Source: Saprospiraceae bacterium (GTDB taxonomy: Bacteria > Bacteroidota > Bacteroidia > Chitinophagales > Saprospiraceae). From it: DNA of 56,025 bases. Below, one piece after another: positions 4,317-6,143 of this stretch. The stretch spans positions 1-56,025 of the forward strand of contig JAHDDE010000021.1 of assembly GCA_020629515.1 (NCBI GenBank), in the 5' to 3' direction. The notes beneath the pieces are model-generated. The model was given only the letters and a program-made list of their open reading frames with translations, was not told the DNA's origin and ran no database searches. Position numbers and translations under genes: made by a program. The first letter of the stretch is position 1, and each line of letters begins with the position of its first letter.

Positions 4317-4934
4317 ATGATCAATTTGAATATATATGTATTAATAGGCTTGACAGCCCTCTTCCTGATTGGAGGTATTATATCGGCGATATTTGCTGGA
4401 TTTTGGTGGGCCTTCCCATTACTATTAGTGGGAATTATTTTGCTTGCAGTGTATATATTCTTTGGCAGTGTGAATTCTGCTGCTAAGCACATCCAAGAGG
4501 AAGATTTTGATAAAGCCGAACAAAAGCTAAATTTAACACTAAAACCAGATTGGCTTTATATCACTCAGAGAGCATTCTATTATATCATGAAAGGATCTAT
4601 CGCCATGCATCGCAAAGATATGAAGCAGGCCGAAGAACTGTTCGATAAGGCATTAGCTATGGATCTTCCATCTGATAATGAAAAAGGTATGTTATTGCTA
4701 CAATTAGCCAATATTAATGGCTCAAAGGGCAAATGGCGCGCCGCTAAAAATTACTTCAGAGAAGCTAAAAAGCTAAAAATAACTGAAGGCCCTATAAAGA
4801 CTCAATTACTTCAATTTGAGAAAGCCCTTAATCAAAGCGGCCAAGCTAAAGCTGCCAGAAGCATGGGCAAACAAGGTATGTCCATGATGTCTCAAGGTGG
4901 AAAGTCTAAAAGACGTCGCCCAAAAATGAGATAG
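4317..4934 (+). CDS. Membrane-anchored tetratricopeptide protein
   Basis: Uncharacterised 205-aa protein. Residues about 5-50 form two hydrophobic helices (LIGLTALFLIGGIISAIF and FPLLLVGIILLAVYIFF) that anchor it in the inner membrane. Residues about 55-165 contain TPR-like helix pairs (KAEQKLNLTL, MKQAEELFDKALAMDLP, KWRAAKNYFREAKKL). The C-terminus is very basic (GKSKRRRPKMR). TPR units usually mediate protein-protein contacts, so a scaffold role is plausible, but no specific function is recognisable. It has its own promoter. Confidence 0.75.
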   Translation: MINLNIYVLIGLTALFLIGGIISAIFAGFWWAFPLLLVGIILLAVYIFFGSVNSAAKHIQEEDFDKAEQKLNLTLKPDWLYITQRAFYYIMKGSIAMHRKDMKQAEELFDKALAMDLPSDNEKGMLLLQLANINGSKGKWRAAKNYFREAKKLKITEGPIKTQLLQFEKALNQSGQAKAARSMGKQGMSMMSQGGKSKRRRPKMR

Positions 4935-5048
4935 GAATTAAAAAAAATCTAATCTCGAGGGATTTCAACTGTAGATATTTGATTAATGTCTAAAATATAT
5001 CTATTAAAATATAAGGTATCAATATTTAATTGATATTTATTAGAATAT

Positions 5049-5080
5049 TTGCAATTGAAACACATTGACCCTTATCTTTG
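5049..5080 (+). promoter_or_regulatory. Promoter (TTG-N21-TATCTTTG) for the tRNA-like pair
   Basis: TTG at 5049-5051 and TATCTTTG at 5073-5080 are 21 bases apart, a complete Bacteroidota-type promoter. A start near 5087 would place about 34 bases before the first tRNA-like gene. I see no second promoter before the second copy, so both are probably made as one precursor. Confidence 0.7.
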
Positions 5081-5120: not shown

Positions 5121-5260
5121 TGTGAGGTGATGAAACAGGTAGACGTGCCCTCTTGTCTCGAGGGTGGAGGTAAGCGATAAACGATGGATAGGGTTGACCA
5201 CAAATTTTCTTTTGTCCATTGGCTAAGCGCTCCGTGGAGGTTCGAATCCTTCTCTCACAG
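5121..5260 (+). tRNA. Class II tRNA-like RNA, copy 1, with 53-nt variable-arm insert
   Basis: A full cloverleaf can be drawn. The acceptor is TGTGAGG with TCTCACA (7 bp, extendable to 8 by C5120-G5260). The D arm has loop AAACAGGTAGA and is Leu-like. The anticodon stem is CCCTC/GAGGG with loop TTGTCTC. The T arm is GGAGG, TTCGAAT, CCTTC. The discriminator is G73. The reading position of the anticodon is GTC (5155-5157, Asp), followed by an unusual U37. The variable region is 71 nt. Removing 5171-5223, which is bounded by TAAGCG repeats, leaves an 87-nt class II tRNA with a normal GGAG/CTCC variable arm. The sequence ends GCA, not CCA. It may be a non-canonical tRNA or a tRNA-derived RNA; decoding is unproven. 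Confidence 0.65.
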
Positions 5261-5319
5261 CAAGATGCAGTAAAGATGTTACTGATTTACTGATTGTTTA
5301 ATATTTATTTTGACAATAC

Positions 5320-5437
5320 TGTGAGGTGATGAAACAGGTAGACGTGCCCTCTTGTCTCGGGGGTGGAGGTAAGCAACAAATTTTTGCAATAAGTAAAAAC
5401 TAAGTGCTCCGTGGAGGTTCGAATCCTTCTCTCACAG
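5320..5437 (+). tRNA. Class II tRNA-like RNA, copy 2, with 31-nt variable-arm insert
   Basis: Same cloverleaf as copy 1, with identical acceptor, D arm, anticodon loop (TTGTCTC, GTC at 5354-5356) and T arm. The anticodon stem is CCCTC/GGGGG, where the single change turns a U-A pair into U-G and keeps pairing. The variable region is 49 nt. Removing 5370-5400 between TAAGC and TAAGTG gives exactly 87 nt, as for copy 1. The insert shares no visible sequence with that of copy 1 but can form a GCAA/TTGC hairpin. Conservation of both ends with free change of the insert suggests the cloverleaf is under selection. Confidence 0.65.
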
Positions 5438-5442
5438 CAAAC

Positions 5443-5487
5443 AAAAGGGCGTCCTTAACGGTTTAGTATGTTAATGGACGCCCTTTT
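5443..5487. terminator. Bidirectional terminator between tRNA-like pair and M23 gene
   Basis: AAAAGGGCGTCC (5443-5454) pairs perfectly with GGACGCCCTTTT (5476-5487) around a 21-base loop, with T or A tracts on both sides. It serves the tRNA-like unit on the plus strand and the M23 operon on the minus strand. The M23 stop codon lies in the loop. Confidence 0.85.
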
Positions 5488-6143
5488 TGTATAAGATGCA
5501 TTGGATCTGGGCAATTCGAACTATAATAATTCACATCTTTTGAAGCACATACTCCAGGATAATCTGCTACCCAATTACCTAAATCCTTAATAATTTGAAA
5601 ATGTAAATGCGGAGGCCAGCCTCCATTCTCTTTCTTATCGCCGAATTCGGCAATTATTTCCCCTGCTTTGATCTCTTTCCCTCTGATCCAGCTATTAAAA
5701 TACTTCTTACTCAGATGACCATATAGAGTATGAAAAATACATCCACGAATATTATGTCTCAATATCAGTGTATATCCATAATCCAAGTGCTGGCTATTAT
5801 AGGCTCCATAGGCTACTTCTCCTGATAACGGGGCATATATGCGACTACTTGAAGGGCCCCATATATCAACTCCCAAATGAATATTTCTGACATCTTCACC
5901 CTCAAAATGCTCACTTCGCACATATAAATTGCGCCTCTCGAGATAACCTCCTATTGCCCATAGACAGGATTGAAGAGTCTTATAATCATTAACGAACAGA
6001 TCAATGTCATCAAAATTAGGAACATCAGGAAGTGCATCGTTGAATATAGAAAGATCAATATCAACGAAATCTTGATCATCGTAATTGACCCCCATAATAG
6101 GGAATACACTTGTAGATTTTAAAACATCAACAAAATCCATCAT
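5463..6143 (-). CDS. M23 (LytM-type) metallopeptidase
   Basis: Protein of 226 aa with a C-terminal M23 peptidase domain, a family that cleaves cross-links in peptidoglycan. Zinc ligands are visible as HLGVD (His89, Asp93) and PHLHF (His179, His181), with the catalytic-type YGH at 141-143. The N-terminal 85 residues are acidic and lack a clear signal peptide, so export is not obvious; some family members act on other substrates. The ATG overlaps the stop of the ABC permease gene as ATGA, indicating translational coupling. The last residues are encoded within the terminator stem. All metal ligands are present, so an active enzyme is expected. Confidence 0.85.

Follow-up and report, generated by a model that had tools for sequence, protein, structure and literature searches.

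The window, by which we mean the whole 56,025-nt stretch of Saprospiraceae DNA that was analysed, carries two tRNA-like genes on the forward strand (Table 1). As read from the sequence, copy 1 is 140 nt and copy 2 is 118 nt long, and each forms a full cloverleaf with a 7-bp acceptor stem, a 3-bp D stem, a 5-bp anticodon stem and a 5-bp T stem, together with a variable region of 71 nt (copy 1) or 49 nt (copy 2). The pair comprises one type A and one type B member of the family described below. Candidate promoter elements are located approximately 40 nt 5′ of copy 1, the Bacteroidota promoter consensus being TTTG/TAnnTTTG, and an intrinsic-terminator-like hairpin follows copy 2. ARAGORN reported no tRNA anywhere in the window, and a search of the window with Rfam 15 gave nothing reaching the gathering score; tRNA finders overlook this family because of its long arm. 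The genes that flank the pair, for an M23 peptidase (5463–6143, minus strand) and a TPR protein (4317–4934, plus strand), differ from the best-shared neighbours shown for the named loci of the family.

A sequence-only reading of this DNA had recognized both cloverleaves, variable regions of these lengths and TAAG repeats, and had pointed out that excising one stretch from each copy leaves 87 nt in both. The repeats and lengths are present as claimed, the arithmetic is correct, and the same fold, with covarying stems, recurs in widespread homologues. Its remark that it knew of no described tRNA of this kind also holds, within the reach of Rfam 15 and the literature searched.

Table 1. Features of the tRNA-like pair in the window
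Feature	Position	Strand	Basis
Bacteroidota-type promoter-like elements, TTTG and TATCTTTG	5048..5051 and 5073..5080	+	read by eye
Copy 1, tRNA-like RNA of type A, apical GGGUUGACCAC, G73, CCA not encoded	5121..5260	+	alignment and model
Copy 1, anticodon arm including the 26-44 pair, loop UUGUCUC (G34 U35 C36 U37 C38)	5147..5165	+	
Copy 1, variable-arm domain: 4-bp stem, 3-bp stem, internal loop, long helix, apical loop	5166..5233	+	
Copy 1, internal loop, 5′ strand GAUAAAC (conserved)	5176..5182	+	
Copy 1, long helix (5183-5190 / 5213-5220) plus apical loop	5183..5220	+	
Copy 1, conserved apical motif GGGUUGACCAC	5191..5201	+	
Copy 1, internal loop, 3′ strand CUAA	5223..5226	+	
Copy 2, tRNA-like RNA of type B, short domain, without GGRUUGACCAC	5320..5437	+	alignment and model
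Copy 2, internal loop, 5′ strand AACAAA	5375..5380	+	
Copy 2, hairpin UUUUUGC-aauaa-GUAAAAA, closes internal loop	5381..5399	+	
Copy 2, internal loop, 3′ strand CUAA	5400..5403	+	
Intrinsic-terminator-like hairpin AAAAGGGCGTCC...GGACGCCCTTTT, 3′ of copy 2	5443..5487	+	read by eye

Distribution in Bacteroidota and their phages

A pattern search of 60 related genomes, the window's own among them, found matches in seven, frequently as tandem copies; blastn against phage records returned one uncultured phage of 636 kb, and a search of plasmid DNA gave zero matches. We built a calibrated covariance model from an alignment of 14 sequences, with a structure that we specified. Copies 1 and 2 scored 145.6 and 115.8 bits, both being training rows of the model. 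Full members scored approximately 77–150 bits, one odd copy 53.8 bits and one truncated copy 63.7 bits, and the ordinary tRNAs in the member loci 14–47 bits. With this model, the family turned up in 171 of the 298 genomes sampled from the order (E 1e-15) and in 40 of 395 genomes of a phylum sample, three of them from another class (E 1e-14); a tally of 177/199 at E 0.01 includes ordinary class II tRNAs, as do its copy numbers, and was left unused. Host arrays reached five strong copies. At one locus (L203, about 5180–5225), a partial tRNA-like sequence lies just 5′ of a full copy and looks like a decayed extra copy.

At least 120 named loci carry the pattern, and the model matched 83 of the 85 that were scanned. 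The carriers listed include Chitinophaga, Niastella, Niabella, Segetibacter, Pedobacter, Spirosoma, Rudanella, Aquirufa, Flammeovirga, Sporocytophaga, Lewinella and Saprospiraceae, several of them as MAGs. Two pattern matches outside Bacteroidota (L204 and L315) had no model match and were counted as chance. In IMG/VR, 44 stretches fitted the pattern, and 42 gave a strong model match, most at 110–132 bits and the lowest at 90; the viral pattern matches L164 and L180 had none, and LR756504 also contained a strong match. Several viral copies sit inside tRNA arrays, 16 viral loci share a neighbour gene whose representative matches the terminase large subunit, and a portal gene recurs as well, indicating that the RNA is phage-borne, beyond mere host DNA.

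In six other member loci, the matches to Rfam 15 were confined to ordinary tRNAs lying apart from the family gene, and no description of such an RNA surfaced in the literature searched, which lay largely outside subscription journals and preprints. The family is large and apparently undescribed, and it occurs in Bacteroidota bacteria and in their phages. The full-member set used below comprises 206 sequences, those shorter than 105 nt being excluded.

The variable-arm domain

The structure was tested on a MAFFT alignment of 70 type A rows. Standard pairs filled 97.7% of the cells, compared with 83.6% after shuffling and 46–56% in slid-structure controls, the latter a comparison that leans towards the proposed structure because it was drawn from the same rows. 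Two-sided changes were found in 28 of the 37 base pairs (covariation score 0.481 versus 0.186): five of seven in the acceptor stem, five of six in the anticodon stem with the 26–44 pair, and, within the arm, three of four in the 4-bp variable stem, three of three in the 3-bp inner stem and six of nine in the long helix. Single-sequence folding was no better than shuffles (z −0.19 and −0.75), and the argument for the structure therefore depends on covariation. Judged by these substitutions, the tRNA fold of the family is maintained under selection, and the variable arm, a domain both structured and conserved, takes the place of an ordinary class II arm.

An internal loop, (R)AYAAA opposite CUAA, separates the inner stem from the long helix; a loose AYAAA...CUAA pattern matched 148 of 151 members of type A and 35 of 55 of type B. 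The top pairs of the long helix are U–G in 69/70 and A–U in 70/70 rows. Above this helix, type A members carry a nearly invariant GGRUUGACCAC with optional hairpins on either side, which type B members lack. The body of the RNA is closest to bacterial tRNA-Leu, also of class II: the D arm resembles tRNA-Leu most among ten tRNAs of the window's own genome (scores 8–12; seven others at most 4), and T8/G9, the position of the variable stem and the GU linker agree by eye. It differs from tRNA-Leu in having G73 instead of A73, a GUC-type anticodon loop, a pyrimidine at position 37 and a longer arm with the conserved domain.

These features bear on several claims of the sequence-only reading, which had proposed that the two inserts share nothing obvious and that the insert site is fixed and the content free. 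Both copies hold the AYAAA...CUAA internal loop closed by a helix (GAUAAA/CUAA and AACAAA/CUAA), and the conserved domain content contradicts the second proposal. What had been read as a bounding TAAG direct repeat consists, across the family, of a nearly invariant 3′ CUAA and a variable 5′ strand (CGG, AGC, TGG, AGT and others). The significance given to the 87-nt coincidence does not survive either, since full members span 108–218 nt (n = 206) and the match arises because the deletion takes both copies down to the same class II core. Of the origins it had offered for the stretch, the structured, strongly covarying arm common to bacteria and phages supports an extended arm with a new role.

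The segment that follows CCAC contains a palindrome of at least 6 nt in 27 of the 70 rows, compared with 9.4 expected and a maximum of 22 in 2000 shuffles. Examples are GCATGC, GCGCGC, GCTAGC and TGTGCACA, in rows such as L050, L065, L165 and L024. A short hairpin or a self-dimerising loop could explain this excess, and many of the rows are related phages.

Acceptor end, anticodon loop and the AsnC-type regulator gene

The anticodon loop could be parsed in 203 of 213 distinct sequences; the other ten are five non-members, three sequences truncated at a contig end and two with an odd D arm. Filters for a TG start and a CAG end removed nothing beyond these ten, and the loop of L298, whose stem pairs poorly, was set by hand to CTGTCTC. 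G73, U1–A72, U35, C36 and C38 are constant in all 203 parsed members and G34 is kept in 200, so that all five of the strong bacterial Asp determinants described in PMC9976931 (G73, G34, U35, C36 and C38) are kept in 200/203. One of the two sequences with an odd D arm is full-length (L305:3130–3293, 53.8 bits) and reads TTGTATC, with C36 lost. Two of the searches had required TGTCTC; a recount on the 71 members not matching that pattern gave G34, U35, C36 and C38 in 68/71 and a pyrimidine at position 37 in 70/71.

The marks of decoding behave differently. Of the 203 parsed members, 199 have U at position 37, 3 have C and 1 has A, a pyrimidine in 202, and U33 is retained in 191 and lost in 12. 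Three carrier genomes provided 53 different ordinary tRNAs (incomplete sets) for comparison, and of these all 53 have U33 and 52 a purine at position 37. A pyrimidine at position 37 alone does not prove an inability to decode. The molecule otherwise has an elongator tRNA cloverleaf with canonical D and T loops and a 7-nt anticodon loop. Ordinary tRNA-Asp is encoded in a carrier genome (G086) and, beside the family RNA, in two phage arrays (L049 and L053).

A member of 196 nt (L001:1593–1788, minus strand, and L351:4484–4679) carries the ordinary tRNA-Asp loop CTGTCAC, perhaps as a relic or a reversion. A tRNA-Lys(ttt) of the window's genome (G000:C36:41021–41092, L369) has the loop CTTTTTC, with a pyrimidine at position 37, on an odd body, and is possibly degenerate or foreign.

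At the acceptor end, pair 1–72 is U–A in 70/70 rows and never G–C, G2–C71 is present in 70/70 and R4–Y69 in 66/69. The base taken as 20a in our own numbering is A in 70/70 rows; it was read from the alignment, the parsing regular expression having fixed it. Pair 10–25 is A–U in 54, U–A in 7, G–C in 4 and otherwise in 5 of the 70 rows, so that G10 is absent from most. According to passages of PMC9976931, the G1–C72 pair assists the placement of the acceptor end within E. coli AspRS, and amidation of Asp-tRNA is conferred by U1–A72 and prevented by G1–C72 with U20a; U1–A72 is recognized by bacterial GatCAB, as stated in PMC4206432. Compared with bacterial tRNA-Asp, the family thus shares G73, G34, U35, C36, C38 and G2–C71, and differs in its class II body, in U1–A72 for G1–C72, in A for U at 20a and in lacking purine 37. 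With tRNA-Asn of the route through AspRS and GatCAB it shares U1–A72 with G73 and the absence of U20a, as these are described in PMC9976931 and PMC4206432, whereas it has GUC rather than GUU and a long arm, and its own amidation is putative. As far as the sequences speak, the RNA joins the marks of Asp with those of amidation and has shed the ones for decoding, which is a pattern and not proof of charging.

Some Bacteroidetes are among the genera that have AsnRS, GlnRS and GatCAB without an Asn synthetase (PMC4206432), and the main text of that paper names none of the carrier genera. Among 25 genomes chosen by hand, as were all the non-random genome sets for the synthetase, LPG_synthase_C, regulator, TROVE and endonuclease tests, 23 encode three class IIb synthetases each, carriers or not. 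An extra Asp-type synthetase thus gained no support, a fourth, partial match being found only in G805 (a carrier) and G071 (a non-carrier), and neither did LPG_synthase_C aminoacyl-tRNA transferases, which occur in 2 of the 25, neither a carrier.

A homologous regulator gene lies directly upstream, on the opposite strand, in 88 of the 120 named loci listed. The other 32 comprise 2 non-members, 11 loci with too little upstream DNA (0–706 nt) and 19 without the gene in the available DNA (14 of Saprospiraceae type, 2 of Flammeovirga, and L233, L279 and L299). For all five regulators tested, AsnC was the best NCBIfam model, at 157–179 bits with the next at 88 or below and all under the 227-bit cut-off; the single regulator searched against PDB matched AsnC best (2cg4, 115.9 bits; next 72). 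A close homologue is present in 19 of 19 carriers tested (E ≤ 6.4e-49), including the window's own genome, where the gene is located elsewhere and not adjacent to the RNA. Of 12 non-carriers, three have a close homologue; in five the match is weaker (E about 1e-35), and in four there is nothing at 1e-25. No diverged RNA was found beside the AsnC-like gene in the three non-carriers with the close homologue (G437, G199 and G097). Shared ancestry can account for part of the association. As described in PMC4482635, the asnA gene of E. coli is activated by AsnC, an effect that is lost in the presence of asparagine.

Candidate roles

These comparisons would be best explained by a tRNA-like RNA that is conserved, transcribed on its own and not used for decoding. 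The sequence evidence gives good support to the family, to its structure and conserved domain, and to the loss of marks for decoding. We further suggest that the RNA is tied to Asp/Asn metabolism and is probably aspartylated, and its arm may, to judge from its conservation, have a docking role. The mature RNA would very probably retain the variable arm and, with nearly the same assurance, would be trimmed and receive CCA as a tRNA does; it would also quite probably stay out of ordinary decoding. That AspRS charges it with aspartate is about an even proposition: the two secondary Asp features (G10 and G1–C72) are missing, and G34 is lost in three parsed members. More tentatively, the arm domain might dock on a protein or RNA, using the charged or uncharged state, within an Asp/Asn supply circuit overseen by the AsnC-like regulator. 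Taken as a joint claim, an aspartylated, non-decoding RNA with its arm as a docking module seems to us plausible, at somewhat less than an even chance.

Staphylococcal cell-wall synthesis uses a non-proteinogenic tRNA-Gly, which offers the same idea of a charged tRNA kept off the ribosome; the likeness drawn here is one of idea, and that tRNA is not known to have an arm domain. Bacterial tRNA mimics also exist, for example YrlA, a bacterial Y RNA that mimics tRNA as a noncoding RNA, has no acceptor stem and binds Ro. The family may be an uncharged regulatory mimic or decoy, an explanation that we regard as possible but rather unlikely, in which the fold would provide stability and processing, the UCUC loop and the arm would bind a protein or RNA, and aminoacylation would be irrelevant. 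Loop positions 35, 36 and 38 stay the same also in members that differ at 33, 34 or 37, and the nearly invariant apical motif of type A is no standard tRNA element; it has 8 perfect complements in the window's genome (one an RNA gene), compared with 2 for the reversed control. However, outside the loop it is marks of the acceptor end that are constant (U1–A72, G2–C71 and G73), as expected if that end is used, and, unlike YrlA, the family has a full covarying acceptor stem. Pooled over nine genomes, moreover, the perfect complements number 42 (seven of them RNA genes), as they do for the reversed control, which weakens the motif as an antisense to rRNA or to a common target. A Ro-bound Y RNA is likewise disfavoured, TROVE occurring in 4 of 31 chosen genomes and in 3 of 19 carriers, with no co-occurrence. 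One complement of the apical motif in the window's genome (C6:57490) is located inside a class IIb synthetase gene.

The phage copies raise the question of conflict, in which the RNA would act as a spare or decoy tRNA against anticodon-loop or variable-loop nucleases and be kept by hosts likewise. Septu and retron-Eco7 cleave the variable loop of tRNA-Tyr, and phage tRNAs counteract them, according to the portion of PMC13096335 that concerns these systems; the strong matches in 42/44 viral contigs and LR756504, with tRNA arrays and terminase genes nearby, and the host arrays of up to five strong copies agree with such a role. Deep presence beside the AsnC-like regulator across many genera nevertheless argues for a housekeeping role, and an arms race would not yield near-identical domain content, so that we consider this explanation doubtful at best. 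We give just as little credence to a serine-charged class II tRNA, similar to allo-tRNAs, that would misread or recode Asp codons or serve a special message. SerRS features include both G73 and a long arm (PMC7609411 and PMC9976931), which the family partly fits, and G2–C71 and R4–Y69 agree as well; allo-tRNAs and tRNA-Sec share the long arm, G73 and non-Ser anticodons including GUC, as reported in PMC7609411. Against this, the bacterial Ser set is largely missing (C72 0/70, G30–C40 0/70 and C11–G24 6/70), the branch is 7/5 instead of 8/4 or 9/3, the arm geometry and D arm are of the tRNA-Leu type, position 37 is a pyrimidine, and the family differs from allo-tRNAs in its internal-loop domain and its nearly fixed anticodon loop.

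Still less probable is an ordinary Asp-decoding tRNA bearing an ornate arm. The GUC anticodon and the Asp determinants are present, and engineered tRNAs with an aptamer at the arm tip were active in E. coli in the experiments described in PMC7590224, but purine 37 is lost in 202/203, U33 in 12 and G34 in 3 members, and an ordinary tRNA-Asp is already encoded in a carrier genome. The TAAG flanks and the 87-nt coincidence in the window had suggested an intron-like element or an insertion with target duplication that leaves an 87-nt tRNA, both of which are unlikely, and removal of the stretch is barely credible: its helices covary in a conserved domain that is shorter than a group I intron, the archaeal-type tRNA-splicing endonuclease (tRNA_int_endo, PF01974) was absent from 16/16 carriers tested and found in 4/14 control genomes, namely the four archaea, the direct repeat is unconserved, and the comparison of homologues with and without inserts proposed by the earlier reading showed no ordinary short-arm member in a set that excludes sequences below 105 nt.

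Returning to a non-decoding RNA that may be aspartylated, we also consider a bolder and improbable extension, in which it would serve tRNA-dependent asparagine synthesis as a dedicated cofactor or sensor. The RNA would unite the marks of AspRS (GUC, C38 and G73) with those of GatCAB (U1–A72, no U20a); an ordinary discriminating AspRS would load Asp, and GatCAB would convert it to Asn on the RNA. Pyrimidine 37 would disable decoding because Asn-RNA would otherwise insert Asn at Asp codons. Docking of the machinery or its user would fall to the variable-arm domain and the tuning of supply to the divergent AsnC-type regulator, in the place that AsnC of E. coli occupies as controller of asnA, a gene for asparagine synthetase.

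The present analysis adds a widespread RNA family that covariation supports well, in which the marks of being chargeable and of decoding are separated within one molecule. It also provides a natural tRNA-like RNA with a conserved variable-arm domain, something hitherto engineered (PMC7590224). If the charging is true, this would be a non-ribosomal use of an aminoacyl-RNA that is worth carrying for phages.

Phages also contain tRNA-Leu-like genes that lie outside the family, at L165:10174–10808 (three in a row), L192:3170–3298 and L173:7214–7350; at 107–158 nt, these appear to have a replaced or enlarged anticodon arm and variable region.
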